Shown here: one piece after another, positions 10,617 through 30,510 of the stretch
How the letters are laid out: each line of letters begins with the position of its first letter
Position numbering within the stretch: the stretch's first letter is position 1
From: Lentisphaerae bacterium GWF2_49_21
GTDB taxonomy: Bacteria; Verrucomicrobiota; Lentisphaeria; Victivallales; GWF2-50-93
Assembly (NCBI GenBank): GCA_001804805.1
Contig: MHBH01000021.1
Location: 1 to 39,577 of the forward strand
Length of the DNA stretch: 39,577 nucleotides
Direction of reading: 5' to 3'
Position numbers and translations under genes: made by a program
The notes under the pieces: model-generated
Told to the model about the DNA's origin: nothing
Databases searched by the model: none
The model's input: only the letters and a program-made list of their open reading frames with translations

Positions 10617-12719
10617 TTACTTTGAATCCAGCCGGGTGATTCCGTTCCAGGACTCGTCCGGCTCGCTGGCGATATACTTGTCACATCTTGCCGTGTAGAA
10701 AACAGAAACCTTGTCCTCCGGGAAATCGCGGAGTATGGACTGGAACATGTCCCTGGCGGCCCTCCATTCCCTTTTCATATATAGATTGTAGGCCTCCTGG
10801 AAACTGTCCGAGAGCCCTTTTAATTTCCCGGATTCCGGCGAATTGTTCTCCGCAAGAAGCTCGTATATCACAACGCTCTGGCTGTACCCTTTGACGGCTA
10901 TCTGGTCCAGGATCCTGCATATGAAATGGTTCTGGACATACCTGTGGGTCGACTTGCTGATTATGACGCTTGTGCCGTAGATCCTGTTTACGCCCTCGAG
11001 CCTGCTCGCCAGATTCACGCCTTCACCCAGGGCGGTATAGTTCATGCGCTGCGTCGACCCCATGTTACCGACCACATTATATCCTGTGTGAAGGCCTATC
11101 CTGGTATGGAACGGTTTCTTGCCCGCCTTTTCCCATTCCCTGTTGAGGGCTTCAATCTCCTTCTGGCATCTCAAGGCCGCCCGGCAGGCCATTATCGCAT
11201 GTTCCTCATTGGCTAGCGGCGCACCCCAGAAAGACATGACCGCATCTCCGATGAACTTGTCGACAGTGCCCTTTTCGTCCTCGATGATCCTTGTCACCAC
11301 ATCAAAATATTCCGAGAGCTGGAGCATCAGATCCTTGGGCGATATGCTTTCCGAAATCGGAGTGAAGTCGACGATGTCCGTGAAGAAAAGCGTCAGTTCG
11401 CGCTCCTTGCCTCCGACAGTCACGCTTTCACCGGATTCGATGAGCTGTTTTACAAGCGTTGAGGGAACGTAGATCTTGAAGGCCTTCAGGCTGTTCTTCA
11501 TGGCTTTTACAGCATCATCCATCGTCTGGATCTCGTGGATGTGGGATTTTATCTCCAAATGCGAGTCCAAGTTGAAATTCTTCACTTCGAGCACCTCTGC
11601 GGCAAGGCGCTCGATTGGCCTCGATATCTGTCTCGCCATGAGGATGCCCGCAAGGACTGAGATGATGAGTATGAAGAGGGAAAGGAGAAGCGTCTTGCGG
11701 AACGTGCTTTTCATAGGCCCTAAAAAATCATCTTCCGGAGCGATGATCGAGAACATCCATTTCTTCCCGAATTCAGGGGGGAATTTGGCGAAGCAGGCGA
11801 GATATCTATTTCCGGACGCCTCATATGAGAACATCTTCTCCCCTTTGTCCTCATAATTCCTCACGGCCTCCGTTATGAACGGGATCTTGAGCTCGCTGGG
11901 CTTCAGGCTGCGGGCTTCTCCGTTTTCAACCCTTACTATGCGCCTGGGATCGGGATAGGCGATCAGCTGTTCCTTCTCGTCCATTATGAAAACCAGCCCG
12001 TTTTTGCTCACGTTTACACTCTGCAGGAATTTCGAAAGCCCTCCAAGGATGATGTCGGCTGCCACGACTCCCCTGAGCGACTTGTCCTTGTTGTAGATTG
12101 GACATGCCACCGTTATCCCCGGTTCCCCGTTCTCGAAGAAGATGTACGGCTCGGTCCAGAAGGTTTTTCCTCCAGCCTTCGCCCCTTTATACCAGGGCCT
12201 TGCCCGGGGATCATACTTGGTGTCCGGATTCTTTTCCTCGCGGAGCATATTGAGATTCCTGTCTAGATAGCGGAAATCAGTGACGGCCTTTCCGTCGATC
12301 TGGCGGATATGCTTTGTATAAATCTCATCTCCGAGCAGTGCCGCCTGGAGGAAGTTCCCCTGCTCGTCCCCGTAATAGAACAAGCCGACCTGCGAATACG
12401 TCAATACGATCTTGAGGAAATATCTGGCCTCCTCTGTGTCCAGTCCCAGCTGCGGTTCGCCTCCATCGAAGAGCTGGGTGGCGATTTCGGCGGCAAGCTG
12501 GGCGGACCGCAGGTAGTTGTCTGTCTTGCTGATCACGGCCTTCGCCTCCTCCTCGAAGTTCCCATCTATCAGTTCCAGGGTGGACTTCCTGTTTTCAAAA
12601 TAGGAGAAGCAGGACAGCAGCAGGACCGTTGCGACGATCAGCGAGGTGAATACGAACACTATGTCGACCTTGAAGGTCCTCTTCTGCAGAAACTCAAAAA
12701 TGGACTTCCTTATACCCAT
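10617..12719 (-). CDS. Membrane adenylate cyclase with dCache sensor, HAMP and C-terminal extension
   Basis: Receptor-type cyclase of 700 residues. TM1 is at about 19-41. A periplasmic dCache domain spans about 42-335 and includes the hallmark YDPRARPWYKGA (169-180). TM2 is at about 342-362, HAMP at 363-415 and a class III cyclase at about 436-620. Metal aspartates are Asp448 (FFTDIVDFT) and Asp492 (DKFIGDAVMSFWGAP). The purine-specifying pair is Lys488 and Thr562 (NYTALGEGVN); Thr in place of Asp is the mark of class IIIb cyclases, of which some respond to bicarbonate. Asn569 and Arg573 are present. The last 60 residues resemble a TPR-like helix pair (SFQEAYNLYMKREWRAARDM). No good ribosome binding site is seen. 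Confidence 0.92.
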   Translation of the reverse strand: MGIRKSIFEFLQKRTFKVDIVFVFTSLIVATVLLLSCFSYFENRKSTLELIDGNFEEEAKAVISKTDNYLRSAQLAAEIATQLFDGGEPQLGLDTEEARYFLKIVLTYSQVGLFYYGDEQGNFLQAALLGDEIYTKHIRQIDGKAVTDFRYLDRNLNMLREEKNPDTKYDPRARPWYKGAKAGGKTFWTEPYIFFENGEPGITVACPIYNKDKSLRGVVAADIILGGLSKFLQSVNVSKNGLVFIMDEKEQLIAYPDPRRIVRVENGEARSLKPSELKIPFITEAVRNYEDKGEKMFSYEASGNRYLACFAKFPPEFGKKWMFSIIAPEDDFLGPMKSTFRKTLLLSLFILIISVLAGILMARQISRPIERLAAEVLEVKNFNLDSHLEIKSHIHEIQTMDDAVKAMKNSLKAFKIYVPSTLVKQLIESGESVTVGGKERELTLFFTDIVDFTPISESISPKDLMLQLSEYFDVVTRIIEDEKGTVDKFIGDAVMSFWGAPLANEEHAIMACRAALRCQKEIEALNREWEKAGKKPFHTRIGLHTGYNVVGNMGSTQRMNYTALGEGVNLASRLEGVNRIYGTSVIISKSTHRYVQNHFICRILDQIAVKGYSQSVVIYELLAENNSPESGKLKGLSDSFQEAYNLYMKREWRAARDMFQSILRDFPEDKVSVFYTARCDKYIASEPDESWNGITRLDSK

Positions 12720-17182: not shown

Positions 17183-19474
17183 CTACTTCGTTTCTTCGGA
17201 CTTGCCGACGACTATCTTCTGCCCGGCAACAGGCGTGTCCGCCTGATTTTTCAACTCGCCAGCCAATGAAGCCAGCTTATCCTGGGATCCGGCGAAATAA
17301 AGCTCTCCGAGATGCCCTCCCCCATTATAGAAGACGCATCTGTCGCCCATTGTCTTCTTGAGCCATTGGCGGCCTGCGGGATTATCCAGAAAATCGTTTG
17401 CCGAATGAATGACAAAAACATTCTGCCCGTCCCGCAGGAAATCCTCAATAGACTTGAGCCTGGACTTCTGATCGATCTCTTCTTCAGAGACTGCGCGTTT
17501 TTCAATATCCGAATGGTATTTGACCAGTAAAATCTTATTGTAGTCGTCAAAGGACAACTGGCTCACCTCTCGATAGAATTCAGTCCTGTTTCCCCAGGAA
17601 CACTTGTTCTTGAAACGGTTCAGCGCCTCGTTGTTCCTGACAATGCTGACAATCATTTCCTCCAAAGTAATCTTATAATTGAAGGAAATCAGCACCTGTG
17701 CTTCAAGGTCGGTAAACGGAAGAGGATCGCACTTTGCCTGCTTCACGCCGATGGCCGCCTGCTCTTTTTCATCTGCTGCAGGTGCAGGCGGGGGTACGCT
17801 TCCTCTGACGACTGGATCTATTCCGTCCTTCTCCTTTTCCAGCTCCAGCTCTCCATAAGGCTTATATTGTCCCGTGGTCATGGAAAGGATTTTCCCTGCT
17901 GCAAAAACCCCGCGGTCGAAAATCTGCTCGCGCGGCCATTTTTTCCATGCGAGTGATGTTTCATCGACAGCCGAAACCGATTTCCCCGTATCGACAAGAG
18001 GATTGATTGCCACGAAACGGTCAAATTTCAGCTTTGGATCCGCCTTCTCCTTTGCCCCGATGAACAGCGCATGAGTTCCCCCAAGCGAATAGCCGACCAG
18101 GATTTTCTTCTGGAAGTGGAGCCCCTTGCCCTCCAGATGACTGATTACTGCAGCAGTGGCCACCCTTACGTCCTCGGCATCCAAAGGAACATAGCCAGGC
18201 ACGGGAGCAGATCCTGCAGTGCTCATGAACTCCCAGTTGAACGCACTGTTCAATAAGGCTACCGTGTACCCCTGGTTGAAAAGGATTTCGGAAATTCTGG
18301 AAGCATGAGTACTTGTGAAATGCGTGCCGAAACCGGGGATCACAACGGCCAGAGGTGCGTCATCCTGCTTCTGATACCATACCTTGTAGGGCATATCGGG
18401 CTTGCCCTTGATCACTTCAACGGAACAGATGGAGCCCTGGTTGAAAAAATCGGTGTTCCAGAGGGATAAATCAACCCACATGCTCCTATTGTCGTTCTGG
18501 ATATCCACCATTCCGACCCTCAGCGTGTCGATGTATGCCCCCTGCGACTTGAAGCCTTTGACGACGATCTCGTTAATCAGGGGATCCGGTTCGGGCAATA
18601 CAATTTCCTTCTCATCTGAAAGGAATTTCTTCTGATATTCCTCTATCCTCTCCTTCCGGTCATAATCGTTGATCTTAAGATGGCGTTCCGCAGCATAGAA
18701 TCTCTTGAGAAGCTCGTATGGATCATAGTTTGCCCGGAAGAAAGTGTCAATGTCGCGGTAGCGGTGTGCGCTATCATTAAGCATCGTGAAGCCGAACACC
18801 CCGGGAAAGGGAATATATGTCTTAGGGTCAAACGCATAATCGAAAATCTTGCCGACCCCGTCGCGGATATTGGACGGACCCAGAACCGGCAGATGGAGCA
18901 CGCATCCGGACCCGATACCCCAGACTGCAAAAGCCTGGCCAAAATCCTCATCCTGCACTTCCATGTCGAACCAGTCAAGCGCAGGATCATAGAAACCGGC
19001 GATACCAAGGGTCACATTGATAAGGAAACGGGATGTGTCAATCCCGGCATATTTGAATTTCGCCTGGCAGATCGAACTGAACGTACGTCTGGGGAATGCG
19101 ATATTGTCGGCGAGGCGTCTGAAACCTTGTATGCCATGTCGCGGAATCAGAGATGCCCAGAAGACAACTACCGGCTGCACCATGTATCTCAATCCGAACT
19201 CGTTCAGCGCAAACATAGAACGGTTAAACCCTTCCATGGGATCGCTGCCTCCGTATTCCTCTGTCAAATCAGGGAATCCTGGTTCTGTACCGGACAGGCT
19301 ATCATTCTCTCCGCCAGCAGGAGCGGCTGCCGCGGCGACTCCTATTCCGTTGCCACCGGCGGCAGGCTCAGTCGCCGCAATCTTACTTCCAGAAGTGCTG
19401 CCGCATCCGGCAACAGCCAGAATGACGAACAGCAGGATGGCATTACTGATAGTGATAGGGGTTTTGATTTTCAT
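17183..19474 (-). CDS. MlaA (VacJ) lipoprotein fused to a C-terminal alpha/beta hydrolase
   Basis: The 763-residue protein joins two families. The signal ends LAVAGC (Cys24), followed by a Gly/Ala/Pro-rich linker. Residues about 75-270 are MlaA, the outer-membrane subunit that removes misplaced phospholipid: DPMEGFNRSMFALNEF, LGIAGFYDPA, DEDFGQAFAVWGIGSG and LPVLGPSNIRDGVGKI. Residues about 370-740 are an alpha/beta hydrolase: oxyanion loop VIPGFGTHF, nucleophile elbow GYSLGG (Ser463), Asp694 in IHSANDF and His721 in GGGHLGE, a full triad. I use ATG 19474; a TTG at 19483 would add three residues. E. coli MlaA has no enzymatic domain. A periplasmic lipase or phospholipase role is inferred. Confidence 0.88.
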   Translation of the reverse strand: MKIKTPITISNAILLFVILAVAGCGSTSGSKIAATEPAAGGNGIGVAAAAAPAGGENDSLSGTEPGFPDLTEEYGGSDPMEGFNRSMFALNEFGLRYMVQPVVVFWASLIPRHGIQGFRRLADNIAFPRRTFSSICQAKFKYAGIDTSRFLINVTLGIAGFYDPALDWFDMEVQDEDFGQAFAVWGIGSGCVLHLPVLGPSNIRDGVGKIFDYAFDPKTYIPFPGVFGFTMLNDSAHRYRDIDTFFRANYDPYELLKRFYAAERHLKINDYDRKERIEEYQKKFLSDEKEIVLPEPDPLINEIVVKGFKSQGAYIDTLRVGMVDIQNDNRSMWVDLSLWNTDFFNQGSICSVEVIKGKPDMPYKVWYQKQDDAPLAVVIPGFGTHFTSTHASRISEILFNQGYTVALLNSAFNWEFMSTAGSAPVPGYVPLDAEDVRVATAAVISHLEGKGLHFQKKILVGYSLGGTHALFIGAKEKADPKLKFDRFVAINPLVDTGKSVSAVDETSLAWKKWPREQIFDRGVFAAGKILSMTTGQYKPYGELELEKEKDGIDPVVRGSVPPPAPAADEKEQAAIGVKQAKCDPLPFTDLEAQVLISFNYKITLEEMIVSIVRNNEALNRFKNKCSWGNRTEFYREVSQLSFDDYNKILLVKYHSDIEKRAVSEEEIDQKSRLKSIEDFLRDGQNVFVIHSANDFLDNPAGRQWLKKTMGDRCVFYNGGGHLGELYFAGSQDKLASLAGELKNQADTPVAGQKIVVGKSEETK

Positions 19475-19716
19475 ACGTTGCAACGATAGTTAGTGAGACA
19501 GGAAAATCAAATCAATTATTGAAGGAATTCGACTTTTACCTTACATGTCGGGATGGCATTCGGACAAGATCCATGGAAGACGGAAAAAAGGATATTGCCT
19601 GATCCCGCGCGTATCCGATTTCCTGAGCCTTATATTCGTGATTGAGTCTTGTAATTACGATGGGTCGGCCTATCCTAAACATTTTGACCTAAAAATAACT
19701 CCAATCCTAAGATATC

Positions 19717-20847
19717 ATGCGAAACAAGAAGATCCTTTATCTATTTTCTGAAACCGGTGGCGGCCATCGGAGTGCGGCCAACGCCTTGGTTGAAACCATA
19801 AAAGAGTTGATGGGCGATGATGCGCCTAAGCAGGAGCTATCTGATGTTTTCGCCTCCTCGAACAAATTGATAAGCCTTCTGGCAAACATGTATGCTCCAA
19901 TTACAAGGCATTTCCCTCTCCTGTGGGGTGGCTTGTATCATGCTACCAACAGCAACTTGTCCATCGCAATCATGGCCAAAGTCTCCGCCCCCTTTGTAGG
20001 GAAAAAACTTCAGGCGCTCATAAGGGAAAAGAAACCGGACATAATTGTGTCGGTGCATCCCATGACGAACCATATCGCCGTGATGGCAATGAGGAAGATC
20101 AATCACAACGTCCCGATCATAACCGTCGTGACCGATCCCGTGACATTTCACCGTGTCTGGATATCCCCCCTGGTAGACAAGATCGTTCTCGCCACTGAAG
20201 ATGCGAAGGCACTTTGCGGAAAGTATGGATATTCCGTTGACAATATCGAGGTGCTGGGATTTCCCATAGAACCTAAATTCTTCAAGGATTCAGCTTCCAA
20301 GAAAGAGTTGCGCCGACCCATGGGAATTGCCACTGACAGGTTCACCTTACTGTTCATGGGCGGGGGTGAAGGAGGGGGTAATATCTATGAATACATTGCC
20401 GCGCTAAACAAAGGCGACCTGGACATACAGCTCATAGTGGTGACCGGAAGAAACAAGTCTCTCAAAAAGAGACTTGAGGATAACATCTCCAGATTCAGCT
20501 TCCCTATGAAAGTTTATGGGTTTACCGACAAGATATCAGACATCATGGGCGCTTCTGATCTTATCATTACCAAGGCGGGGCCAGGAACAATCAGGGAAGC
20601 CGTCTCGAAAAGCCTGCCGATAATCCTTACAAGCTTCTTGCCTGGACAGGAAAAAGGAAATGTCGACCATGTAATTAAAATGCAGCTCGGTGTTGTGGTG
20701 ACGGACTTTAAGATGATAGTGCCTGCCGTGCGTAATATCATGCAGCCGGAGACATACAGCCGCCACGTATCGGCACTGCAGAAGGAAAACAACCCGGAAG
20801 CTGTATATAATATTGCAAAACTGATACTTGGCTACAAGGACAAATGA
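19717..20847 (+). CDS. GT28-family glycosyltransferase, MGDG synthase/UgtP-like
   Basis: The 376-residue protein has the two-domain GT-B layout of diacylglycerol glycosyltransferases. The N-terminal MGDG-synthase motif FSETGGGHRSAANAL is followed by TDPVTFHRVW. The C-terminal nucleotide-sugar part shows LLFMGGGEGGGN and then TKAGPGTIREAVSKSLPIIL and LPGQEKGNVDHV. It would transfer a sugar to a membrane lipid at the inner leaflet. MurG is related but has different motifs. It is transcribed away from the MlaA-hydrolase gene. A TTGACC/TAAGAT pair lies so close to ATG 19717 that the message might be leaderless. Confidence 0.85.
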   Translation: MRNKKILYLFSETGGGHRSAANALVETIKELMGDDAPKQELSDVFASSNKLISLLANMYAPITRHFPLLWGGLYHATNSNLSIAIMAKVSAPFVGKKLQALIREKKPDIIVSVHPMTNHIAVMAMRKINHNVPIITVVTDPVTFHRVWISPLVDKIVLATEDAKALCGKYGYSVDNIEVLGFPIEPKFFKDSASKKELRRPMGIATDRFTLLFMGGGEGGGNIYEYIAALNKGDLDIQLIVVTGRNKSLKKRLEDNISRFSFPMKVYGFTDKISDIMGASDLIITKAGPGTIREAVSKSLPIILTSFLPGQEKGNVDHVIKMQLGVVVTDFKMIVPAVRNIMQPETYSRHVSALQKENNPEAVYNIAKLILGYKDK

Positions 20848-20900: not shown

Positions 20901-21356
20901 TTAATTTGAATTTTCGTGCAACCTCCTGAGAACTGCATCGACCGACTTGTCCTTCAACGCCTCCGCTTCAAGGAATGAAGCCAGCTTCCTGTCCTTGGTC
21001 CTTATGTGATTGACGAACCAGTTGACAACCAGATAATTCAGCCTCAGGAAGACAGGTTCGAGGGATTCCTCCTGGAGCCGGGGTTCAAGCTTGTCCAGTT
21101 CAGCAATGAAATTGTCATGGAAAGCCTTATGCTGCTTCATGTCTGCATAGCTATATTTTCCCATAAGTTTCTCTTCAAGCCCGAAATGCTCGAGGATATA
21201 GTTTTTCAGGAAATCGAACGCCTTCAGAATAAGCTTCTTGTCGTTTTCAGAACCTTCAAGAAGATCGTTGGTGAGCTTGAAGAAGGTCTTGTGCTGCCGG
21301 TCAATGACAGCTATGCCGGTGCAGAGATTTTCAGTCCATTCGATTCCACTCGGCAT
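20901..21356 (-). CDS. Bacteriohemerythrin
   Basis: Di-iron oxygen-binding protein of 151 residues. All seven ligands are present in order: His22 (IDRQH), His57 and Glu61 (EHFGLEE), His76 and His80 (QHKAFH), His117 and Asp122 (NHIRTKD). It has no signal or extra domain. TAGGAGT precedes ATG 21356. It follows the STAS gene by 23 bases on the same strand and probably shares its transcript, suggesting a link between oxygen level and the partner-switching pair. That link is inferred. Confidence 0.92.
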   Translation of the reverse strand: MPSGIEWTENLCTGIAVIDRQHKTFFKLTNDLLEGSENDKKLILKAFDFLKNYILEHFGLEEKLMGKYSYADMKQHKAFHDNFIAELDKLEPRLQEESLEPVFLRLNYLVVNWFVNHIRTKDRKLASFLEAEALKDKSVDAVLRRLHENSN

Positions 21357-21379
21357 ATTAGGACTCCTATAGGAAAGCT

Positions 21380-21730
21380 CTAGATATTTTCAAGTGCGTG
21401 CGACTCTTCCGGATAGATCTTGAAATAAGACCCGAGCCCCATCATGTCGAAACCGGCCCTTATCGTCGGAGAGACATTGCAGAATGCCATGACCGCCTTT
21501 TTCTCCTTCGCCTTCTTGCCGGCAATGATGAAGGAACGGAAGAAGAGGCTGGACATCCTTGTCACATTGGAGATGTTAACGATGACTTTCAGGGCTCCTG
21601 AATCAAAAGACTGTGTGAGGATACTGGTCATCTCATCCGCCATCTTGGGATCAAGCAGGACCGCATTCCCAATCCTCATTATATAGATGCCGTTCCTGTT
21701 CTCCTCGATTATCTGAATTCTCTCAGGCAT
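21380..21730 (-). CDS. STAS-domain anti-sigma factor antagonist
   Basis: A 116-residue single STAS domain of the SpoIIAA/RsbV type. In partner switching, the kinase phosphorylates a serine on this protein; here the site is Ser60 or Ser61 in NVTRMSSLFFRSF. AGGAGGGG precedes ATG 21730, which overlaps the end of the upstream kinase gene by 8 bases. No sigma factor or PP2C phosphatase gene is nearby, so the target is elsewhere or is not a sigma factor. Confidence 0.88.
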   Translation of the reverse strand: MPERIQIIEENRNGIYIMRIGNAVLLDPKMADEMTSILTQSFDSGALKVIVNISNVTRMSSLFFRSFIIAGKKAKEKKAVMAFCNVSPTIRAGFDMMGLGSYFKIYPEESHALENI

Positions 21731-22145
21731 TTTCCCCTCCTGTCTTTTTTATCAGAATAAAATGATTGGCTCCGTCCCTGTGGTAGTATCTGGTCTCATC
21801 AGTGAACTTCCTCACGAGCTCGACGCCCATCCCTCCGGCCTTTCTTTCCTCAATTGGGACATTAACGTCGAGTTCTGGATACCTTGTAGGATCAAATTTC
21901 ACTCCGCTGTCTATCAGTTCCACGGTCACACAGTCATTTACCCTGTCAATTATGATTTTTACGTTTCCCTTTTTCCCGGAGTATCCATGGAGTACGATAT
22001 TGGTTATGGCCTCGTCCAGCGCCATCATGAGTTCCTGCCGCGCCGTCTCCGGGATATCGAGCTTCTTCAAGGCAAGGTCGGAAAGGTTGCTCATTTCCTC
22101 GATGTCCGCGGGAAGCACTTTTTTTTCAATGATGCATTTGCTCAT
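21723..22145 (-). CDS. RsbW/SpoIIAB-like anti-sigma serine kinase (HATPase)
   Basis: A 140-residue GHKL ATPase. The N-box is ELMMALDEAITNIVLHGY, followed by IDSGVKFDP and AGGMGVELVRKF. I choose ATG 22145. The frame stays open to 22295, but a strong promoter at 22249-22277 lies inside that extension and the extra 50 residues look non-coding. It overlaps the STAS gene by 8 bases, the usual order for such pairs. No strong ribosome binding site is seen before 22145. Confidence 0.82.
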   Translation of the reverse strand: MSKCIIEKKVLPADIEEMSNLSDLALKKLDIPETARQELMMALDEAITNIVLHGYSGKKGNVKIIIDRVNDCVTVELIDSGVKFDPTRYPELDVNVPIEERKAGGMGVELVRKFTDETRYYHRDGANHFILIKKTGGENA

Positions 22146-22248
22146 GTTTTCAACATTGCCTTTAAAGTTATCAAAAACCTTCTCCCGGAGGTATTCATGG
22201 GAAAGGATACCAGCAACTGAAAAAGAATACAAAGCCCTGCAAAAATAA

Positions 22249-22277
22249 AAATTAATCTTGTAAGCGGATAAAGTCAA
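22249..22277 (-). promoter_or_regulatory. Promoter of the kinase-STAS-hemerythrin operon
   Basis: On the minus strand TTGACT (22277-22272), a 17-base spacer and TAATTT (22254-22249). The transcript would begin about 100 bases before the chosen start of the kinase gene. Confidence 0.6.
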
Positions 22278-22588
22278 GACTGTCGCCTCGCCCAAATCTG
22301 TTTATTTTACCTTCATCAACAGGAAATTTAAATGTTTGAAATTTCGAAATCTTAATAGTCTGGTTCCCCTGCGAGATTCGCAACAGCCCTCTTTAACGTC
22401 GGAAGCTTTGGCCTGTCCGGGAATGTCTGCCCGGTTGTTTATCACAGATCGCCGACAAACAAACGCATAGCCGACGCTTTTCAATATGGCACAACATGTT
22501 CAGCGCGCATTATAACACATTGCCAGCTAAGCACTTGAGATCTGACTTTCAATACAGGCGCAATCCTCGTGAGACGTAATCTTTGACA
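22278..22588. other. Intergenic region without a recognised gene
   Basis: About 310 bases between the kinase promoter and the PqiC hairpin. It has no frame with coding character and no clear repeat from the families found elsewhere. An AT-rich stretch (22320-22350) holds GAAATTT/AAATTTC half-palindromes. Confidence 0.5.
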
Positions 22589-22626
22589 GATACTCTCGTG
22601 CGGAAGGACTTCCGCACGAGAGTATC
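22589..22626 (-). terminator. 18-bp perfect hairpin at the end of the lipid-transport block
   Basis: Arms 22589-22606 and 22609-22626 are exact reverse complements around a 2-base loop (start GATACTCTCGTGCGG). The hairpin begins at the first base of the pqiC stop codon. No T-tract follows on either strand, so it may block 3' exonucleases or terminate weakly rather than being a standard intrinsic terminator. Confidence 0.55.
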
Positions 22627-23360
22627 TACGGCTTCCTATCGGCTTCCGCCCGGATTGCGGCGGCGATATCGCTGCTCACCTTCGCCAATGCGCGGCTGTG
22701 TGCGGCGGCAAGTACGTCGAAGCCTTCTTCAGTCACTTGCTCTGTCACGGACGTGCGACCTGAAACAGGCAGTCCAGCAGCCCCCTTGCGGATCACCCAT
22801 ACTGCTTCAATCTGAACCGATTTGCCTGGCGCTGACTCGAACTTCTGGATGTCGATCGTCACGCGATAATTTGGATCAAAATTCGCCAGCGGCACCGCGA
22901 CCACTTGAGTAGTTCCAAGCAGTATTGCAAGATCGCCGGCAACGACACGCGCGATATTGCTGTCCAGCGGCTCCGCCCAGCGGTTGAATTCATCAATGCC
23001 CACACGGTTCGGCGCGATAAGAACGGTGAACTGCGGACGGTCGACCTCCGCCGGAATGGAAACCGGGCCGACGGCTACGGAGCAGTCCGCTACGGACTTG
23101 CCGTCTCCTTTCGCCGTGGAGCTGAGGGTGTAGAACTTCGACGAGGCTGAGGCGCAACCGGCCATGAACACGGCGACGAACGCGACTGCGACGAGACAGT
23201 TGAGGCAATTGTATAATTGCCGAAGGTAGGGCGTTTTCTCCGAAAGCGCCGCTTCAGAACGGACGGCTTCCCGATGCATTTCAGGATCGGGATAAACTCG
23301 AGCCATCCCTACCTTGAATTTACCAGTTTTAGAATTGTTTCGACTAATGTGTTTTTTCAT
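22626..23360 (-). CDS. pqiC: PqiC-like ABC-type transport auxiliary lipoprotein with a repeat inside its signal peptide
   Basis: Outer-membrane lipoprotein partner of PqiB. The mature part has the family pattern: VAVGPVSIPAEVDRPQFTVL, NRWAEPLDSNIARVVAGDLA and then beta-strands to residue 244. The lipobox is FMAGC with Cys69, far from the start. The reason is visible: codons 16-46 are a copy of the AAGGTAGGG repeat (23223-23315) inserted in frame, before the hydrophobic core NCLVAVAFVAV. AGGAG before ATG 23360 lies in the end of pqiB and supports this start. Without the insert Cys would be residue 38. Whether the long signal still works is unknown. Confidence 0.85.
   Translation of the reverse strand: MKKHISRNNSKTGKFKVGMARVYPDPEMHREAVRSEAALSEKTPYLRQLYNCLNCLVAVAFVAVFMAGCASASSKFYTLSSTAKGDGKSVADCSVAVGPVSIPAEVDRPQFTVLIAPNRVGIDEFNRWAEPLDSNIARVVAGDLAILLGTTQVVAVPLANFDPNYRVTIDIQKFESAPGKSVQIEAVWVIRKGAAGLPVSGRTSVTEQVTEEGFDVLAAAHSRALAKVSSDIAAAIRAEADRKP
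23223..23315. repeat. AAGGTAGGG/CCCTACCTT element, copy 2, in frame within pqiC
   Basis: The core is 93 bases, exactly 31 codons, and starts on a codon boundary of pqiC. It is bounded by AAGGTAGGG (23223-23231) and CCCTACCTT (23307-23315) and keeps the GCCGTCCGTTC and CGGCGCTTTCGGAGAAA parts of the family. Flanking bases after CCTT (CGGCAATT) also resemble copies 1 and 3, so the true border may be a little further out. Confidence 0.85.
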
Positions 23361-23365
23361 TATCT

Positions 23366-24889
23366 TTATTCTCCTGTTTTACCACGTATAAGTGCTTCGG
23401 GATGACGTTCGAGATAATCGGCAAGCACGCGCAGCGCCCGTGCCGCACCACTGCCCTGCTTGAGCATGTTGTTCAGTTCGGAGCTCATTACCGAGTTCGG
23501 TTCTATGAGCTGGTTGGCGCTGTCAAGCAGCTTGTCGGCATTGCTTATCGTACTGCGCGCACCCACAACCGTCTGGTTCATATTCTTGACCAGGATTTCA
23601 ACGCTGTCTTCAAGCGAAGCAAGCTTGTCAAGCACGGTAGGCAGCTGCAGGGGATCCTGCGACCAGTCCAATACCACCGCCGGTGCATCAGGATAGAAAC
23701 CAAGGGACACCAGCAACGATCCGGTAAGCAGGTTTGCCATATCCAGCTCCGCCCGCATGCCGCGGGAAACCAGGGTTTCAATAATTTTCCTGTGGAAGTC
23801 CTTGGCATCCTTGCCTTCCGCCACGTCCATGAACTTGACTCCGTATCGCTTCGGATCCAGGCATATGGTAACATGCACTGAGCCTTCAAGCGTCTTCACA
23901 TCCAATTCAGTGCTGATACTGGTGACTTCGCCGATGGTTATGCCGTAGAACTGCACCGGCGCACCCACGTTCAAGCCGCGGACTGACTGCTTGAAGACAA
24001 GCAGATAGTCGTAGGGTTCGCAGACGGGCGGTTTGAAGGCTTCGGTGCGGTCGCCGAACAGTTCGAACGTGGTTTCGGCTGCGGAGGGCGGCAGTATCGG
24101 ATCGTTGTCGGGCGTTTCGAACGCCACGCCCCCGGCCAGTATGGACATCATTGATTCGGTTTTTACATGGATGCCGCTTGCGGTGAGTGAAACATCAATC
24201 CCGCTGGCCTGCCAGAACCTGGTGTCCGCATTGACGTATCCATCATAGGGGGACTGCACGAATATCTTCACGTTCAGGAACTCGCCTCCCTTGTCCAGTT
24301 CATATGATAAAACCTGTCCGGCCTGCAATTGCCGGAAAAATACCGGCACACCGACATCCAGCGAACCCAGAGCCGGAGTCTTCAGCGTGAAAACGCGTCC
24401 GGGAACATCGCCAGTCAATGGCGGTGTTTCAAGCGCGACGAAACTGAACTCCTTTTCCTCGGACCGGCCAAGCTGCATGCCGATGTAGTTTCCAGAAATC
24501 AACGTGCTGAGTCCCGAGACGTTCAGGCCGGAGATGCGCGGACGCACGATCCAGAACTTGGTATCCTTGACGAGAATCTCAGCCGCGTCGGGGCTCATCT
24601 GCGCGGTGGCGATTATGCTCTTACGATCTTCTGAGAGACTGATAGTCTTGAGAACTCCCATGTTCAGCCCATTGTAGTTGATCTTGGTCTTGTTGGCTTC
24701 GAGGCCGTCGGCGGAGAGGAACACAATTGTGATCTCCGGCCCCTTGCTCAAGATGTGCGTCACGGCAACCCAGACACCTGCGATGGCGGCCACGAAGGGA
24801 ATGATCCAGACCAGGGGTATCCGCATACGCTTCTTGACGACTACCTTGGAACTGGGAACTTTTGGAAATGATTTGTCCTTGTCAGGCAT
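23366..24889 (-). CDS. pqiB: PqiB intermembrane lipid transport protein (three MCE domains)
   Basis: Inner-membrane-anchored protein whose MCE domains form a periplasmic tunnel for lipids. It is 507 residues with one N-terminal TM (about 23-45, IPLVWIIPFVAAIAGVWVAV). Three MCE repeats follow: about 50-140 (NGLNMGVLKTISL), 160-265 (DVGVPVFFRQLQAGQVLSY) and 285-420 (RGLNVGAPVQFYGITIGEVTS). The coiled-coil tail ends YLERHPEALIRGK. It overlaps the PqiA gene upstream by 8 bases and is followed by pqiC after 5 bases. The length and domain count match E. coli PqiB. Confidence 0.94.
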   Translation of the reverse strand: MPDKDKSFPKVPSSKVVVKKRMRIPLVWIIPFVAAIAGVWVAVTHILSKGPEITIVFLSADGLEANKTKINYNGLNMGVLKTISLSEDRKSIIATAQMSPDAAEILVKDTKFWIVRPRISGLNVSGLSTLISGNYIGMQLGRSEEKEFSFVALETPPLTGDVPGRVFTLKTPALGSLDVGVPVFFRQLQAGQVLSYELDKGGEFLNVKIFVQSPYDGYVNADTRFWQASGIDVSLTASGIHVKTESMMSILAGGVAFETPDNDPILPPSAAETTFELFGDRTEAFKPPVCEPYDYLLVFKQSVRGLNVGAPVQFYGITIGEVTSISTELDVKTLEGSVHVTICLDPKRYGVKFMDVAEGKDAKDFHRKIIETLVSRGMRAELDMANLLTGSLLVSLGFYPDAPAVVLDWSQDPLQLPTVLDKLASLEDSVEILVKNMNQTVVGARSTISNADKLLDSANQLIEPNSVMSSELNNMLKQGSGAARALRVLADYLERHPEALIRGKTGE

Positions 24890-25535
24890 GTTGAACCTCT
24901 TTTTCAGTTTCTGTTGAACTTGCAGAATCCCATATGAGCCGCGGATCGAAAGAATCGACCGCCATCATTGTAAACACCACTACAGCCGCAAAGAAAAGCA
25001 GTCCCGGTCCCGGCTCCACGGACATGAGCGGCTGCAGCTGGATCAACGCCACCGTGAAGGTGTCCACGAACACATCCACCATGGACCATCGTCCAATGAT
25101 ATCGATCATCCGGTATAGCCTGTTTTTCTGGATGTTGTTCCTGATCGAGCCGCGCTTCACTGAAATGACCAGGTAGAGGAGACCCGCGATCTTCGCGCTC
25201 GGAATCATGATGCTGGCGAACAAAACGATGAGCGAAAGCGGCCATCCCGTCGGCGACCACAGCAGGACAACGCCCTGCATGATGGTGTCTGATTCCCTGC
25301 CGGCGCTGGTGATGGTCGTCATCACCGGCAGGAAGTTGGCGGGAATATAGCAGATCGACGCCGCAACCAGATAGGCTATGGTGCGCTGGAGGCTGTCCTT
25401 CTTGCGGAAGACAAGTTCCTCGTCGCAGCGCGGACAGCGCCCTTCTTCCGCGCCGGATGCCGGATGTGAAAGCAGGCCGCATGCTTCGCAGCACTGCAGC
25501 CCTTCCTTCATTGCGGTAGGGGTGGATGTGCTCAT
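24882..25535 (-). CDS. pqiA: PqiA-family membrane protein, second half
   Basis: A 217-residue inner-membrane protein with one PqiA domain. An N-terminal Cys-rich zinc-ribbon-like region (CCEACG and CPRCDEELVFRKKDSLQRT) precedes four predicted helices, with the family motif PANFLPVMTT and a second motif DIIGRWSMVDVFVDTF. I choose ATG 25535. The frame continues to 25589, but those 18 residues come from the edge of an inverted-repeat element. E. coli PqiA has two such domains in one chain; here the other domain is the separate gene upstream. It overlaps pqiB by 8 bases (ATGCCTGA). Confidence 0.87.
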   Translation of the reverse strand: MSTSTPTAMKEGLQCCEACGLLSHPASGAEEGRCPRCDEELVFRKKDSLQRTIAYLVAASICYIPANFLPVMTTITSAGRESDTIMQGVVLLWSPTGWPLSLIVLFASIMIPSAKIAGLLYLVISVKRGSIRNNIQKNRLYRMIDIIGRWSMVDVFVDTFTVALIQLQPLMSVEPGPGLLFFAAVVVFTMMAVDSFDPRLIWDSASSTETEKEVQHA

Positions 25536-25558
25536 GTACCACCATAGAGGATAATTAT

Positions 25559-25666
25559 GAATATCCAATGACCAACAAGGAATTTCCAATATCCAACGAA
25601 TTCAACTCCTGTTGATTTCTTCCTATACTTCGTCATTGGACATTCCTTGTTGGTCATTGGATATTC
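25559..25666. repeat. 25-bp perfect inverted repeat element between the two PqiA genes
   Basis: Arms 25559-25583 and 25642-25666 are exact reverse complements (starting GAATATCCAATGACC). The inner 58 bases contain further TCCAATATCC and GTCATTGGACATTCC copies. The right arm runs into the 3' end of the upstream PqiA gene and supplies its last codons and its TGA stop. This looks like a mobile miniature element inserted in an operon. Confidence 0.85.
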
Positions 25667-26322
25667 CTCGCTTCCTCCTCCGCCCATTCGACCCTGCTCC
25701 ATACCTCATGCGGATCAAAGCACGACTGCATCGCGGCGAGCAGGAAAACCAGCGCGAACAGGCAGAACAGGGCAAATCCCGGAATGACCGTTGCGTATTC
25801 CGCAATCTTCGTCAACGACACCAGTACTCCGAGAAGCATGACCTCTATCATGCTCCATGTCCTGGTGAAGTTGATGTGCCTCAGCAGCAGGCCGACCCAG
25901 GCAGGCGGACGTCTGCGGGCACAGCCAATCAGGATCAGAAACAGGAAGCCGATCTGAAGGGCCGGGGAGATCACTGCGGTGAATAGGACAAGTACTGCAA
26001 CAATCTGATGTCCGTTGATCCAGAGCTTCTCCGCGCCGCCGGTTACCGTGGTAAAGGCCTCGCGTCCGACGGCGTTGAGCCCGAGCATGGGGACGGTGTT
26101 CGCAACGATGTACAGTATTATCGCCGCAACCGTCAGCGCAAAGGTGCGGTTGAACGAATCCCTGCGGTGGCGCCACAGTTCCTTGTCGCAGCGCGGACAG
26201 CGCACGGCCGCGCCCGGCTCAACCTCAGGAATACGCTGCAGCAGATCGCAGTGGGGACAGGCGATGATCGACGCGTCCGCCAATGGCCGGTTGCAGTCAG
26301 AGTGGTGATTTTGTATCTGCAA
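25654..26322 (-). CDS. pqiA: PqiA-family membrane protein, first half
   Basis: A 222-residue inner-membrane protein with one PqiA domain. Paired CPHC and CPRC motifs (about 22-25 and 41-44) suggest a zinc ribbon. YIVANTVPMLGL is the family's first-helix motif, and RTWSMIEVMLLGVLVS is the second. There is no in-frame ATG; TTG 26322 or TTG 26283 must serve, and neither has a clear ribosome binding site. The final residues NIQ and the stop lie in the inverted-repeat element, so the original C-terminus has probably been altered. PqiA proteins are thought to feed lipid to the PqiB tunnel. Confidence 0.85.
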   Translation of the reverse strand: MQIQNHHSDCNRPLADASIIACPHCDLLQRIPEVEPGAAVRCPRCDKELWRHRRDSFNRTFALTVAAIILYIVANTVPMLGLNAVGREAFTTVTGGAEKLWINGHQIVAVLVLFTAVISPALQIGFLFLILIGCARRRPPAWVGLLLRHINFTRTWSMIEVMLLGVLVSLTKIAEYATVIPGFALFCLFALVFLLAAMQSCFDPHEVWSRVEWAEEEARNIQ

Positions 26323-26453
26323 AATTATTCTTACTGATAGGAGTTTTGATCTTTTGTTTGTGGAAATGTAGCCAGCCTGGGAGCATAAATCAAGCAGAAC
26401 GCATCTTCATCATAGGGTATCTGAAGTAAAACCAGCTGGAAAACCTGGCTTCC

Positions 26454-27506
26454 TCATTCCGGATCGACGACCGGCCTTTCCTGCTTGCCGGTGATGAGGG
26501 CGCTGGGATTGCGCTCGAGATAGTCAAGAAGCTGTTTCGCGGACTGCAGGGTTTCATTGAAGTCAAGCATGTTCTTCTTGAACTCGGCGCGGAGGGCGTC
26601 GATGTTCCTCACCGTCTGATCTGAATTATCGACCAATGTCTTCGCTTTTCCAGAGAGCTCGGAAATCTTCGCATCCTTGATCTCCTTGCTGGTCTCGTCG
26701 GCGAGTTTGCTGATCGTATCAAGGGTCTTGTTGAAATTGTCGAACGATTTCTGCAGGTTCTGCACCAGATCATCGATGCGCTGCTTGCTCATTGCATCAT
26801 TCACCCTGGCGGAAAGATCCTTCAGGCTGGTGCTGATCGAATCAATCTGACCTACAATTTCCTTGATCTGCTTCTCGTCGATGATCTTGTTCGCCTTCTC
26901 AAGGAACTGGTTGAGCTGGTCGGAGATCTTCTGAAGATCCATCTTCGCTACGTTCTGGGTGGCCTTGTGCACCTCGGTTATGATGCTTTCTATGCTGACC
27001 GTCGGAATTGACGGGATATACGGGGGATGATCATCCGGAAGATCGTAATCACCTATCGGATTCTCCTTGGGATCGAGGATCGTGATATCAACAAACAATG
27101 TCCCGGTTATATCACCGTACTGGAGCTGGCACCTCAGGCCCTTGCTCACATGATCATCGATACTGTCGCTGAAACTCTCCATCGCCTGTTTTTCCGACAT
27201 GAGCTTCAGCTCATTCTTCTTCTTTGTCGCCTTGCAGAAGGCGTCCGGATCAAAGTTCATGTAGATCAGTATCTCCTTCATCTCAGGCCCAAGCTGGATC
27301 TTATCGACGCTGCCGACCGTCACGCCTTTGATCTTGACCTTCGCACCTTTCTCAAGCCCCTGGACCGAAGCCGATACAATGGTCATGAATGCATATGTCT
27401 TCTTGAAATACTTGAATGATCCCAGCGCCACCAGCCCGATTACAAGGAGAGCGAACGCCACCACGGCAAGAACCCCCACCTTGTATTTATTTCCAATATT
27501 GCTCAT
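26454..27506 (-). CDS. mlaD: MlaD-family MCE protein, substrate-binding part of the ABC lipid transporter
   Basis: A 350-residue inner-membrane-anchored protein. The TM is at about 10-32. The single MCE domain (about 35-150) shows ASVQGLEKGAKVKIKGVTVG. A long coiled coil with repeated Ser/Lys/Asp heptads spans about 185-330, ending LDYLERNPSALITGK, nearly the same tail as PqiB. It is longer than E. coli MlaD (about 180) because of the coiled coil. It follows the MlaF stop by 3 bases. It probably forms the hexameric ring on MlaE. Confidence 0.92.
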   Translation of the reverse strand: MSNIGNKYKVGVLAVVAFALLVIGLVALGSFKYFKKTYAFMTIVSASVQGLEKGAKVKIKGVTVGSVDKIQLGPEMKEILIYMNFDPDAFCKATKKKNELKLMSEKQAMESFSDSIDDHVSKGLRCQLQYGDITGTLFVDITILDPKENPIGDYDLPDDHPPYIPSIPTVSIESIITEVHKATQNVAKMDLQKISDQLNQFLEKANKIIDEKQIKEIVGQIDSISTSLKDLSARVNDAMSKQRIDDLVQNLQKSFDNFNKTLDTISKLADETSKEIKDAKISELSGKAKTLVDNSDQTVRNIDALRAEFKKNMLDFNETLQSAKQLLDYLERNPSALITGKQERPVVDPE

Positions 27507-27509
27507 ATT

Positions 27510-28280
27510 TCATCCCCTCATGTTTGAACGGTTTAAAAATTGCCTTACCCATCCGTTGCTGCTGTTTTCACGCAGCTTCCTCGGATCCCCCTCCTCGATG
27601 ATCCCCTTCTTCTCCTTGTCAAGGATGATGCCCCTGTCAGCCACGGAATATATGCTGTCCAGCTCGTGTGTCACGATCACCATCGTGCATCCGAGCGTGT
27701 TCCTCAGTTCCAGTATCAGATTGTCGAGATCCGCGGATGAGATCGGATCAAGGCCCGCGGACGGTTCATCGAAAAAGAGGATTTCCGGATCAAGGGCCAT
27801 CGCCCTGGCGAGGCCCGCCCTCTTCTTCATTCCGCCGCTCAGCTCGGAAGGCATGAACTGTTCGAAGCCTTCGAGCCCGACCAGGCTGAGCTTGTGCTTT
27901 GCAACAGAGGAGATCATGTCTTCGGACAGCTCCGTGAACTCCCTCAGCGGGAGCGCGACATTCTCCTCGAGCGTCAAGGAGCTGAAAAGCGCTCCGGACT
28001 GGTATAGCACCCCGAAAAGCCTGGTCAGATCCTCCTTTTCATCATCGTCGGCATTCACCATGCTCCTGCCTTTGATGAGTATGTCCCCGGACAGCGGCTC
28101 ATAAAGTCCTATCATATGTTTGAGCAAGGTGCTTTTTCCGCATCCCGACCCTCCGAGTATCACGAAGATCTCGCCCTTGTACACATCGAAGGTCAGATCC
28201 TCCAGCACGACAAGATCGCCATAGCCTATGTCCAGGCTCCTGACCTCTATCATCGCCTTGCCTTGTTCTCTTGAATCCAT
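27510..28280 (-). CDS. mlaF: ABC transporter ATPase, MlaF-like
   Basis: Cytoplasmic ATPase of the lipid transporter, 256 residues. Walker A is GGSGCGKST (43-51), the Q-loop is Gln94, the signature LSGGM is at 147-151 and Walker B plus catalytic Glu are ILFFDE (167-172), followed by PSAGLDPIS. The LSGGMKKRAGLARAMALDP text is typical of MlaF. AAGAAGG precedes ATG 28280, and MlaD follows at once. MlaE lies 301 bases upstream on the same strand, separated by repeats. Confidence 0.94.
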   Translation of the reverse strand: MDSREQGKAMIEVRSLDIGYGDLVVLEDLTFDVYKGEIFVILGGSGCGKSTLLKHMIGLYEPLSGDILIKGRSMVNADDDEKEDLTRLFGVLYQSGALFSSLTLEENVALPLREFTELSEDMISSVAKHKLSLVGLEGFEQFMPSELSGGMKKRAGLARAMALDPEILFFDEPSAGLDPISSADLDNLILELRNTLGCTMVIVTHELDSIYSVADRGIILDKEKKGIIEEGDPRKLRENSSNGWVRQFLNRSNMRG

Positions 28281-28581
28281 ACCCGGTCAACCTTCTTAAG
28301 AATTCATTTCTTGTCGTCATGTCTTTTATGTCAGGCGTCTCCGCCTGACCTTGGCCTGTCGCGCCGTAGCATCTCAGCGAAGGCGGAAGCTTGCGTAACC
28401 TGTTGTCGAAGATCCCGGCCCCAACGGGCGTCGGGAAAACAAACTAAAGTTTGGACTCCAACTGGCATATTTCCGCGACAACAGTTTTATTATATTATTG
28501 AAATCAGCTCATCAAAAAGCTATTTCAATCCAGAACAATCAATCTTTCTTCGATTCTTGCCATCCATTCATCCGGCTTCTA
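28281..28581. repeat. Repeat-filled gap between mlaE and mlaF
   Basis: No gene is seen. It contains a GTCAGGCG/CGCCTGAC hairpin (28330-28349), of the same family as 34167-34186, and the CGAAGATCCCGG repeat (28408-28437) shared with 9874-9901. The remainder (28440-28560) is AT-rich without clear structure. The gap sits inside what is otherwise one operon. Confidence 0.65.
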
Positions 28582-29724
28582 TTAATATTTTATCCCGAAA
28601 ATCAGTACTATCTGGGGGAATATGAATGTGACGAAAAAATCCGCCACGACAACCAGGAAAATTCCAGTGACGACAGAAGATGTCGCCGCCTTTCCCACGC
28701 CTTTCGCATCCTTGTCCGACTCGAAGCCGCGGAAACAGCCGACGCAGGCGATTATGCAGGCGAACACCAGTCCTTTCACAAGTGATTCTGCGATATTCGC
28801 AGGAATCATGGACTCTATGGTCCTGTTCACGTATTCGATCACGGTCATGTCCGTCATCCCGATGCTGATGATAAGTCCTCCCATGATCCCGCTGAAATCC
28901 CCGATCAGGACCAGCATCGGCATGACCACTGCAAGGGCGATGAGTTTTGGAATGACAAGGAAACGGGCGGGCTTGAGCCCCATCGTATCCATCGCGTCAA
29001 TTTCCTCGGCCACGTTCATTGTCCCAAGCTCCGCGGCATATGCCGAACCGGCACGCCCGATGCAGATCATCGCGACCATCAGCGGACCAAGCTCCCTTAC
29101 AAGCGCGAGACCGACAAGATCCGCTATGTAGATCTGCAGGCCGAACCTTTCCATCTGCGTGATTCCCTGGAATCCGAGGATGACTCCTATGAGGAAGCAT
29201 ATCAGCATTACGATCGGGATCGCGTCCGCACCGCTCTTGTCCATGTAATATACGACCTCCCGGAGATCAAGCTTCCGGGGATGGGTGAACAGATAGAATG
29301 ATTTGCAGATCTCTCCGATGAAACCAAGGCACTTCCTTGCGTCACCATAAATCTTATAGCATGCGTCTCCTGACGAGAGGAAGACGGACTGTGGTTTTTC
29401 CCTGCGGAACTCCTTGGGATGGTATCTTCCTTCCTTGTCAAACCCGAGCTTTGCGAGATTCGCAGCCAGAACCTCATCGGAAATCCCCTTGAATTCAATC
29501 TTCACGTCATTCCTGGAGCAGAGCTCTCCGCAGCCTATGATGAAGGTGATCACCGAGAAGTTCGAAGACACGATCTTGCTGAGATCTACTGAAAGGAGAT
29601 TTATATCATTCTTAAAAAGCACCTTGACCTGCTCGTATGAGGACTCCATCTCCTGGAATGACATCCCCTGCCCAGGCAGATCCTTTATCTCAAGCATTTT
29701 TCCATTTTGATTCAGCGAAGGCAT
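28582..29724 (-). CDS. mlaE: MlaE-family permease with N-terminal STAS domain
   Basis: Inner-membrane permease of the phospholipid ABC transporter, 380 residues. Residues about 1-105 resemble a STAS domain (LLSVDLSKIVSSNFSVITFI), the role played by separate MlaB in E. coli. Residues about 130-380 are MlaE, with VILGFQGITQMERFG, VRELGPLMVAMICIGRAGSA and AEEIDAMDTMGLKP followed by four or five helices. The start at ATG 29724 has a weak site; ATG 29697 is an alternative. Fusion of STAS with MlaE occurs in several phyla. Confidence 0.92.
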   Translation of the reverse strand: MPSLNQNGKMLEIKDLPGQGMSFQEMESSYEQVKVLFKNDINLLSVDLSKIVSSNFSVITFIIGCGELCSRNDVKIEFKGISDEVLAANLAKLGFDKEGRYHPKEFRREKPQSVFLSSGDACYKIYGDARKCLGFIGEICKSFYLFTHPRKLDLREVVYYMDKSGADAIPIVMLICFLIGVILGFQGITQMERFGLQIYIADLVGLALVRELGPLMVAMICIGRAGSAYAAELGTMNVAEEIDAMDTMGLKPARFLVIPKLIALAVVMPMLVLIGDFSGIMGGLIISIGMTDMTVIEYVNRTIESMIPANIAESLVKGLVFACIIACVGCFRGFESDKDAKGVGKAATSSVVTGIFLVVVADFFVTFIFPQIVLIFGIKY

Positions 29725-29762
29725 TTATTGATCCGTATTTTTAAGACAAATTGTACGTATTC

Positions 29763-29782
29763 AGTAAACTATGTCGTTTACT
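29763..29782. promoter_or_regulatory. Inverted repeat upstream of mlaE
   Basis: AGTAAAC-tatgtc-GTTTACT, a 7+6+7 inverted repeat 39 bases before the mlaE start. Size and place fit a repressor site, but no cognate regulator is apparent. A loose TTGCAT promoter lies upstream on the minus strand. Confidence 0.35.
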
Positions 29783-29958
29783 TAATCCGTACTAAAAATA
29801 AAATGCAAAATCATTCTTTTTATGATTTATTAGATGTAAATATTTACGGCAAATTCCAATTTTTCATGTATTTGTTTGTAGTCAATGCCGTAAGGCATGT
29901 TCTTATTGAAAACTATTCCATTCTCTCAGGCAGCAGAACTTGGGTTACCTATAGTTTA

Positions 29959-30510
29959 TCACGGGCTCTTCTGGATATCTGCCGTAATCTCCTCAAGGAT
30001 CTTTGCGGCGGCGGTGGCGGCGCCCCTGGCGAAACTTTCACCTGTTATTTTCTCCACCGGCACTTCCTGCATGTAGGTCTTGCTGAAAAGCGGTTTCCCC
30101 GACGAACGTTCCTCGAAGGAAACCTGTATTATGAGTTTCACAGATGATTTGACCATATCCGCCTCGATCTGGAATATCTCCGCCTTCAGGAGGCAGACAA
30201 CAGCCTTTTCATTTGAAGCACCGGTTTCATAGGCGAGTGAAAGATATTTCTTCAGCATGTCGGCGGGAGAGCAGCTCCAGCGGTTGTATTCATCAAGCTC
30301 TATGCGGTTCTCTGACATCCTGAAGACCATCTTCTCCAGATAAGGCCTGCTCGCATCGACATCGGCGACCAGCACCCGCCTGCCGCCGACATCCTGCACG
30401 GCAGGAGACCCGATGTCAAAATACGAGGACTTTATATATGGCTCCTTCCTGAATATCCCGCATCCGCAGATAAAAAGGATCAGGACTGCGCAGGTCAAGA
30501 TTCTGATCAT
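29959..30510 (-). CDS. PqiC-like ABC-type transport auxiliary lipoprotein
   Basis: A 183-residue lipoprotein with signal ending LFICGC (Cys17). The mature part follows the PqiC pattern: YFDIGSPAV, RMSENRIELDEYNRWSCSPADML and LKAEIFQIEAD, closing with an amphipathic helix (GAATAAAKILEEI). It is the first gene of the lipid-transport block and 234 bases before mlaE. It is a second, diverged relative of the PqiC at 22626-23360; by position it likely serves the MlaFED-type complex. AAAGGAG precedes ATG 30510. Confidence 0.85.
   Translation of the reverse strand: MIRILTCAVLILFICGCGIFRKEPYIKSSYFDIGSPAVQDVGGRRVLVADVDASRPYLEKMVFRMSENRIELDEYNRWSCSPADMLKKYLSLAYETGASNEKAVVCLLKAEIFQIEADMVKSSVKLIIQVSFEERSSGKPLFSKTYMQEVPVEKITGESFARGAATAAAKILEEITADIQKSP

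Follow-up and report, generated by a model that had tools for sequence, protein, structure and literature searches.

The stretch of DNA analyzed here, referred to as the window, comprises 39,577 nucleotides of contig MHBH01000021.1 from Lentisphaerae bacterium GWF2_49_21, whose genome measures 5.9 Mb and is 95% complete. On its reverse strand lies one uninterrupted open reading frame of 763 amino acids, counted from its ATG, in which an MlaA domain is followed by a predicted alpha/beta hydrolase; an alternative start codon, TTG at 19483, is possible. The features of this gene, together with a neighboring cluster of transport genes, are the following:

17183..19474, minus strand: complete mlaA-hydrolase fusion gene, ATG at 19474, stop codon ending at 17183
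19403..19474, minus strand: signal peptide and lipobox (LAVAGC, lipidated Cys24), from the sequence and a motif scan
18680..19246, minus strand: MlaA domain (PF04333), residues 77-265, from a Pfam search
18620..18679, minus strand: junction after the MlaA C-terminal helices, equivalent by alignment to E. coli MlaA residues about 223-242
17186..18619, minus strand: C-terminal segment holding the MlaY-type alpha/beta hydrolase domain, from sequence and profile comparison
18086..18088, minus strand: codon of the nucleophile Ser463 (GYSLGG), from alignment and motif scan
17393..17395, minus strand: codon of the acid Asp694 (SANDFL), from alignment and motif scan
17312..17314, minus strand: codon of the catalytic His721 (GGGHLG), from alignment and motif scan
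22626..30510, minus strand: Mla/Pqi cluster of eight genes without mlaC (PqiC, a PqiB with three MCE domains, PqiA, PqiA, a long MlaD, MlaF, MlaE and a PqiC-like protein)

The N-terminal half had been recognized as MlaA from the letters alone, and this was borne out by a near-full-length match to the Pfam profile PF04333 (E 1.6e-46, 162.7 bits against a cut-off of 25, profile positions 2-193 of 195). The lipoprotein signal was called by a crude motif, and its VAGC is not universal among the homologues. A domain search of the full chain returned the complete MlaA, then a weak Abhydrolase_1 match of 24.3 bits, under the cut-off of 25.8; when the C-terminal half was scanned alone, the score rose to 26.2 bits, over the cut-off. 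The triad proposed in the sequence-only reading, Ser463 in GYSLGG, Asp694 and His721, was found at exactly the positions given there.

The fusion is not confined to this gene. A second, paralogous fusion of 830 amino acids, 56% identical to that of the window, is encoded on another contig (C40) of the same genome, and a scan of named genome contigs returned four relatives, all in Lentisphaerae or Victivallis MAGs and with full-length homologues present; a scan of viral contigs for further relatives returned none. The search for the same fusion in related genomes, suggested along with the initial observation, was successful: the profile of the hydrolase half matched 106 of the 387 genomes of the phylum that were searched, and in 94 of these 106 the hydrolase lies within an open reading frame of at least 600 amino acids. 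It forms a separate frame beside MlaA in ten genomes (G040, G052, G055, G132, G197, G213, G218, G275, G367 and G382) and is broken up or at contig ends in two (G156 and G361), a split counted by hand from the tables of hydrolase and MlaA matches. Eight of the ten separate pairs were read, and in all eight MlaA comes first and on the same strand, and for most of the hydrolase frames a start codon lies no more than a few tens of bases from the end of MlaA. Several of the separate hydrolases begin with a signal-peptide-like stretch of their own (read by eye), which suggests that the hydrolase domain works in the periplasm.

To place the hydrolase half, plasmid records were searched by tblastn with the fusion, and 65 of them matched. 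In records of Pseudomonas aeruginosa, Skermanella and Fusobacterium, the fusion matches two neighboring genes, which are annotated, where annotation is present, as ‘alpha/beta fold hydrolase’ and ‘VacJ family lipoprotein’; the Fusobacterium stretch (L045) is unannotated, and its reading frames were read directly. Compared with the P. aeruginosa hydrolase beside VacJ, here a plasmid-borne copy, the C-terminal half gave a blastp E of 1e-28 at 25% identity and an hhalign probability of 99.8% (E 6e-28), with the homology covering its catalytic domain. In the P. aeruginosa protein, positions 187, 388 and 415 are S, D and H, and these residues align with S463, D694 and H721, the spacing from Asp to His being 27 residues in both. 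The triad of MlaY is given as S187, D388 and H415 in the available sections of PMC11977310. Because the residues match those published and align with the triad of the window, we take the P. aeruginosa hydrolase to be MlaY; it is presumably PA3238, judging from its triad positions and its VacJ neighbor rather than from an accession.

The MlaYZ system of P. aeruginosa (MlaZ, PA3239; MlaY, PA3238) was described by Guest et al. (2023, PNAS), cited here through later papers. According to the accessible parts of PMC11131202 and PMC12569750, MlaZ is an MlaA homologue that hands mislocalised phospholipid over to MlaY to be degraded, or is proposed to do so. MlaY, a periplasmic lipase proposed to act with MlaZ, is treated as a lipase or phospholipase in the same parts and in those of PMC11977310. 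The idea put forward from the sequence, that MlaA extracts lipid and the attached hydrolase cleaves it, is supported by the homology of the C-terminal half to MlaY, for which this MlaZ-to-MlaY hand-over has been proposed.

Conservation of the triad was assessed over 55 aligned hydrolases, 44 fused and 11 separate, with three of the separate ones from outside the phylum. This set consists of the best profile matches plus 19 of 20 chosen places, rather than of all 106 hydrolase genomes; duplicates (L001, L047, L048 and L049) were dropped, and L005, which is truncated, and L093 (G332), with its odd gaps, contributed to the triad count and were excluded from the trees. Serine and histidine are present in 55 of 55 sequences and aspartate in 54 of 55, the remaining one, from Fusobacterium, having glutamate. 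This last sequence belongs to a hydrolase-MlaA gene pair of a different phylum (L045, 3797-5873).

AlphaFold models built from a five-sequence input were poor, with a mean pLDDT of 34.3 for the full chain and 41.5 for the C-terminal half. In both, a strand precedes each of S463, D694 and H721, as in the alpha/beta hydrolase order. The structural matches of the C-terminal model (mean pLDDT 41.5) are alpha/beta hydrolases, including lipases and esterases, with Z up to 9.9, an rmsd of 5.0 and 206 aligned residues, and Foldseek with the same poor hydrolase model returned no match at E up to 0.001. These low-confidence models and their matches are consistent with an alpha/beta hydrolase fold and are no proof of the triad geometry. 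A close PDB relative of the hydrolase half was rejected: phmmer of the C-terminal half against the PDB gave chance matches only, and a profile of the hydrolase gave weak alpha/beta hydrolase matches, the best at E 0.0013.

Next, the history of the two halves was examined in trees. A branch supported at 93/87 divides the 88 MlaA domains of the tree: the 50 domains of the phylum that are linked to a hydrolase fall together on one side, the 35 standalone MlaA and three MlaZ on the other. The MlaA half of the fusion does not group with P. aeruginosa MlaZ, and a tree holding MlaZ with the hydrolase-linked group was borderline rejected (AU p 0.039). A single clade of all fused MlaA was rejected as well (AU p 0.005); fusion therefore happened at least twice, or happened once and was followed by splitting. 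In the order to which the window belongs, the separate pairs fall outside the group of fused chains, which suggests that two closely coupled genes merged into one there. The hydrolase tree recovers the clade of the window at 100/98, the P. aeruginosa-type trio at 100/100 and, weakly, the other clade of the phylum at 73/64.

The distribution of the Mla partners across the phylum was then compared. A search for MlaC (PF05494) gave no match in the window genome, 95% complete, while the same search was positive in an E. coli control and in 47 of the 387 genomes. Across the 387, MlaA was detected in 153 genomes, MlaC in 47, the MlaY-type hydrolase in 106, PldA in 28 and MlaE in 359, and every one of the 106 hydrolase genomes has MlaA. 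The co-occurrence table, built by hand from the match lists of the five proteins, divides the 153 MlaA genomes into 105 with the hydrolase and no MlaC, 44 with MlaC and no hydrolase, one with both and three (G268, G271 and G308) with neither (Fisher p 1.4e-33, a statistic that ignores shared ancestry). The sole sampled genome with both, G172, has them on two different MlaA genes. MlaC lies within 500 bases of MlaA and on the same strand in 44 of the 47 MlaC genomes, and in other genomes the hydrolase occupies the MlaA-side neighborhood that MlaC holds in these. Given this adjacency and the near-exclusive occurrence, the direct partner of MlaA in this phylum is therefore, as a rule, either MlaC or the hydrolase. 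By a hand count of family codes, 13 families have the hydrolase and 21 have MlaC, and two (f19 and f39) hold both kinds of genome, so the contrast recurs, although in few instances. Few independent events underlie the exclusion of MlaC, because all hydrolase-linked MlaA of the phylum fall on the same side of a tree branch. As a separate observation, the G172 loci L090 and L036, with MlaC-linked MlaA and fused MlaA, offer a natural case for comparison.

The sequence-only reading had allowed that extracted lipid is cleaved instead of, or as well as, being sent back. Cleavage instead of return is favored over cleavage in addition to it, because the window genome has no MlaC match and hardly any genome of the phylum sample has both MlaC and the hydrolase. 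The junction bears on the same question. In E. coli, according to the accessible portions of PMC10719372, MlaA recruits MlaC through an acidic tail (227-251), and its C-terminal helices (residues 195-226) provide the docking site for MlaC at the periplasmic base of the channel. In our alignment, E. coli MlaA residue 226 corresponds to residue 269 of the window protein and residue 243 to residue 286, and the hydrolase segment starts there; the chain would thus carry a lipase where MlaC would bind. This argument turns on the position of the hydrolase and not on loss of the tail. Loss of the acidic tail as a mark of hydrolase-linked MlaA was tried and failed, since most MlaC-linked MlaA of the phylum likewise have a short tail or none.

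The domains, the conservation of the triad, the MlaY-type homology and the near-exclusive occurrence with MlaC are directly supported by these results. We consider it likely that the protein is a single-chain MlaZ-MlaY, in which the MlaA half extracts phospholipid from the outer leaflet and the predicted lipase cleaves it in place of a hand-over to MlaC. The MlaA half, as a lipoprotein, would sit in the outer membrane, and mislocalised outer-leaflet glycerophospholipids would pass through its channel. The hydrolase, joined directly after the MlaA C-terminal helices, would receive the lipid at the periplasmic mouth, where the Ser463/Asp694/His721 triad could cleave an acyl ester beside the pore. 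The lipid would then be destroyed on the spot rather than shuttled by MlaC. The phospholipid substrate, its hydrolysis, the direct hand-over and the fate of the products are what we infer within this model.

The Mla/Pqi cluster, encoded on the same strand as the fusion and about 3 kb away, is probably the inner-membrane partner of the fusion. Its MlaD is elongated (350 amino acids), its two PqiC-type proteins are lipoproteins, and its MlaE has an N-terminal stretch ahead of the permease domain, which we take to be a STAS domain. In G323 and G284, too, MlaE is no more than about 3 kb from the fusion; clustering of the transporter with the fusion is thus seen in the window and in these two genomes and is not general. 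The window genome has LpxC, consistent with an LPS-containing outer membrane. A promoter scan gave 5 matches against a mean of 2.7 in shuffled sequences, little above chance.

This proximity, in the window as in G323 and G284, would fit a single pathway, in which the fusion cuts the lipid and the MlaFED/Pqi machinery then takes the resulting lyso-lipid or fatty acid inward, and the retention of MlaE in 95 of the 106 hydrolase genomes points the same way. MlaE is, however, found in 359 of the 387 genomes whatever their MlaA, and the 11 hydrolase genomes with no MlaE match include some of 94-97% completeness (G014, G031 and G058), so a genome can retain the fusion when the Mla transporter is missing. 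There is moreover no MlaC to cross the periplasm. A single pathway is compatible with cleavage at the MlaA channel but adds a further step to it, and we regard it as rather unlikely. Somewhat more plausible to us, and proposed tentatively, is that in Lentisphaerota-type bacteria MlaA-MlaC recycling has been replaced by destruction of the lipid through a channel joined to a lipase, with neither MlaC nor PldA kept and with MlaFED/Pqi freed for another task, for example to supply phospholipid outward or to take up the cleavage products.

Against the lipase reading stand the identity to MlaY, only about 25%, and the wide range of substrates among alpha/beta hydrolases. As an alternative, the hydrolase half could act on another substrate of the envelope (lipid A, lipoprotein, cardiolipin or glycolipid) as an acyltransferase or esterase, with MlaA as acyl-chain donor and no lipid disposal. 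Acyltransferases and thioesterases do stand beside lipases among the structural matches of the poor model, and a diacylglycerol-glycosyltransferase-like gene adjoins the fusion in the window and lies near it in L005. The MlaY-type homology with its aligned triad argues against such a role, as does the treatment of MlaY as a lipase or phospholipase in the consulted parts of PMC11131202, PMC12569750 and PMC11977310, and we judge it improbable. A frameshift or assembly chimera joining two neighboring genes, named at the outset as what would overturn the fusion, is rejected: relatives do have adjacent-gene versions of MlaA and the hydrolase, but the frame has no internal stop, the same genome holds a paralogous fusion, full-length homologues occur in named MAGs, and fused chains are found in several lineages of the MlaA tree and, as frames of at least 600 amino acids, in 94 of the 387 genomes.

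The preferred reading, extraction by MlaA and cleavage by the attached lipase, was set beside the known systems. MlaYZ likewise pairs an MlaA-family protein with an alpha/beta hydrolase whose triad aligns, and extraction and degradation have been proposed for it. It consists, however, of two proteins with the lipase gene first, as also in Skermanella and Fusobacterium, whereas the fusion is one chain with MlaA first and its MlaA half lies off the MlaZ branch; P. aeruginosa also has the canonical MlaA-MlaC route, whereas the fusion genome has no MlaC match. With the canonical E. coli system (MlaA, MlaC, MlaFEDB) the fusion shares the MlaA channel domain and, nearby, homologues of MlaE, MlaF and MlaD. 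It differs in the missing MlaC match, in the hydrolase attached where MlaC would dock and in its score against the MlaA equivalog of NCBIfam (NF011672), 85.8 bits, below the cut-off of 375.

The sequence-only reading had further seen the Mla and PldA-type routes combined in one chain. This holds for the presumed outcome, destruction of outer-leaflet phospholipid, and not for the enzyme, which has no match to PldA. PldA, the outer-membrane phospholipase A, is a beta-barrel with a Pfam family of its own (PF02253), and the search with this family matched none of the 106 hydrolase genomes. The window genome has no PF02253 match either, and membership of PldA was rejected on this ground. Finally, the MlaEFD-only system of Veillonella parvula is similarly MlaC-less with an elongated MlaD, but such systems also lack MlaA, which the fusion genome has (available text of PMC10665443). 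The same text reports no MlaD beta-barrel in PVC bacteria and maps MlaA-F over 1083 genomes by Pfam, and the word ‘hydrolase’ is absent from it.

The partnership of a lipase with an MlaA-family protein is already published, as the two proteins of MlaYZ. A literature search covering titles and the beginnings of abstracts, with Guest et al. (2023) outside its reach, found no publication on an MlaA-hydrolase fusion or its exclusion of MlaC, and the word ‘fused’ is absent from the available text of PMC11131202, PMC10925693 and PMC10665443. The new part is genomic, the near-exclusive occurrence of the hydrolase and MlaC. The sources as available describe MlaYZ from one species, in which it runs in parallel as a second path; here, a large group of genomes seems to depend on a degrading version without MlaC, mostly as one polypeptide. 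If the proposed mechanism is true, MlaA would be an interchangeable front end that feeds either a carrier or an enzyme. The fusion would then be a natural covalent complex in which to view the lipid hand-over from MlaA, and the lineages that carry it would test whether recycling through MlaC is dispensable for outer-membrane asymmetry. Their genomes also constrain what MlaFED does without MlaC.

Several further observations concern the surroundings of these genes. The gene adjoining the fusion encodes an MGDG-synthase-like diacylglycerol glycosyltransferase (window 19717-20847, plus strand), and a similar gene is close to the fusion in L005 (2971-4161, minus strand), a possible glycolipid link. 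Between the fusion and the Mla/Pqi cluster lies a small cluster of hemerythrin, STAS and RsbW-like ATPase genes (20901-22295, minus strand). Elsewhere in the window, two proteins with adenylate/guanylate cyclase domains, one with a HAMP domain and one with a Cache sensor, are encoded at 8680-9822 and 10617-12719 (minus strand), near a V4R-domain protein. Among the plasmid records, three of P. aeruginosa (NZ_CP137508.1, which is L044; hits H1 and H4) match both halves of the fusion, and in L044 the mlaY-mlaZ pair is close to a recombinase gene and may be a chromosomal segment carried on the plasmid.
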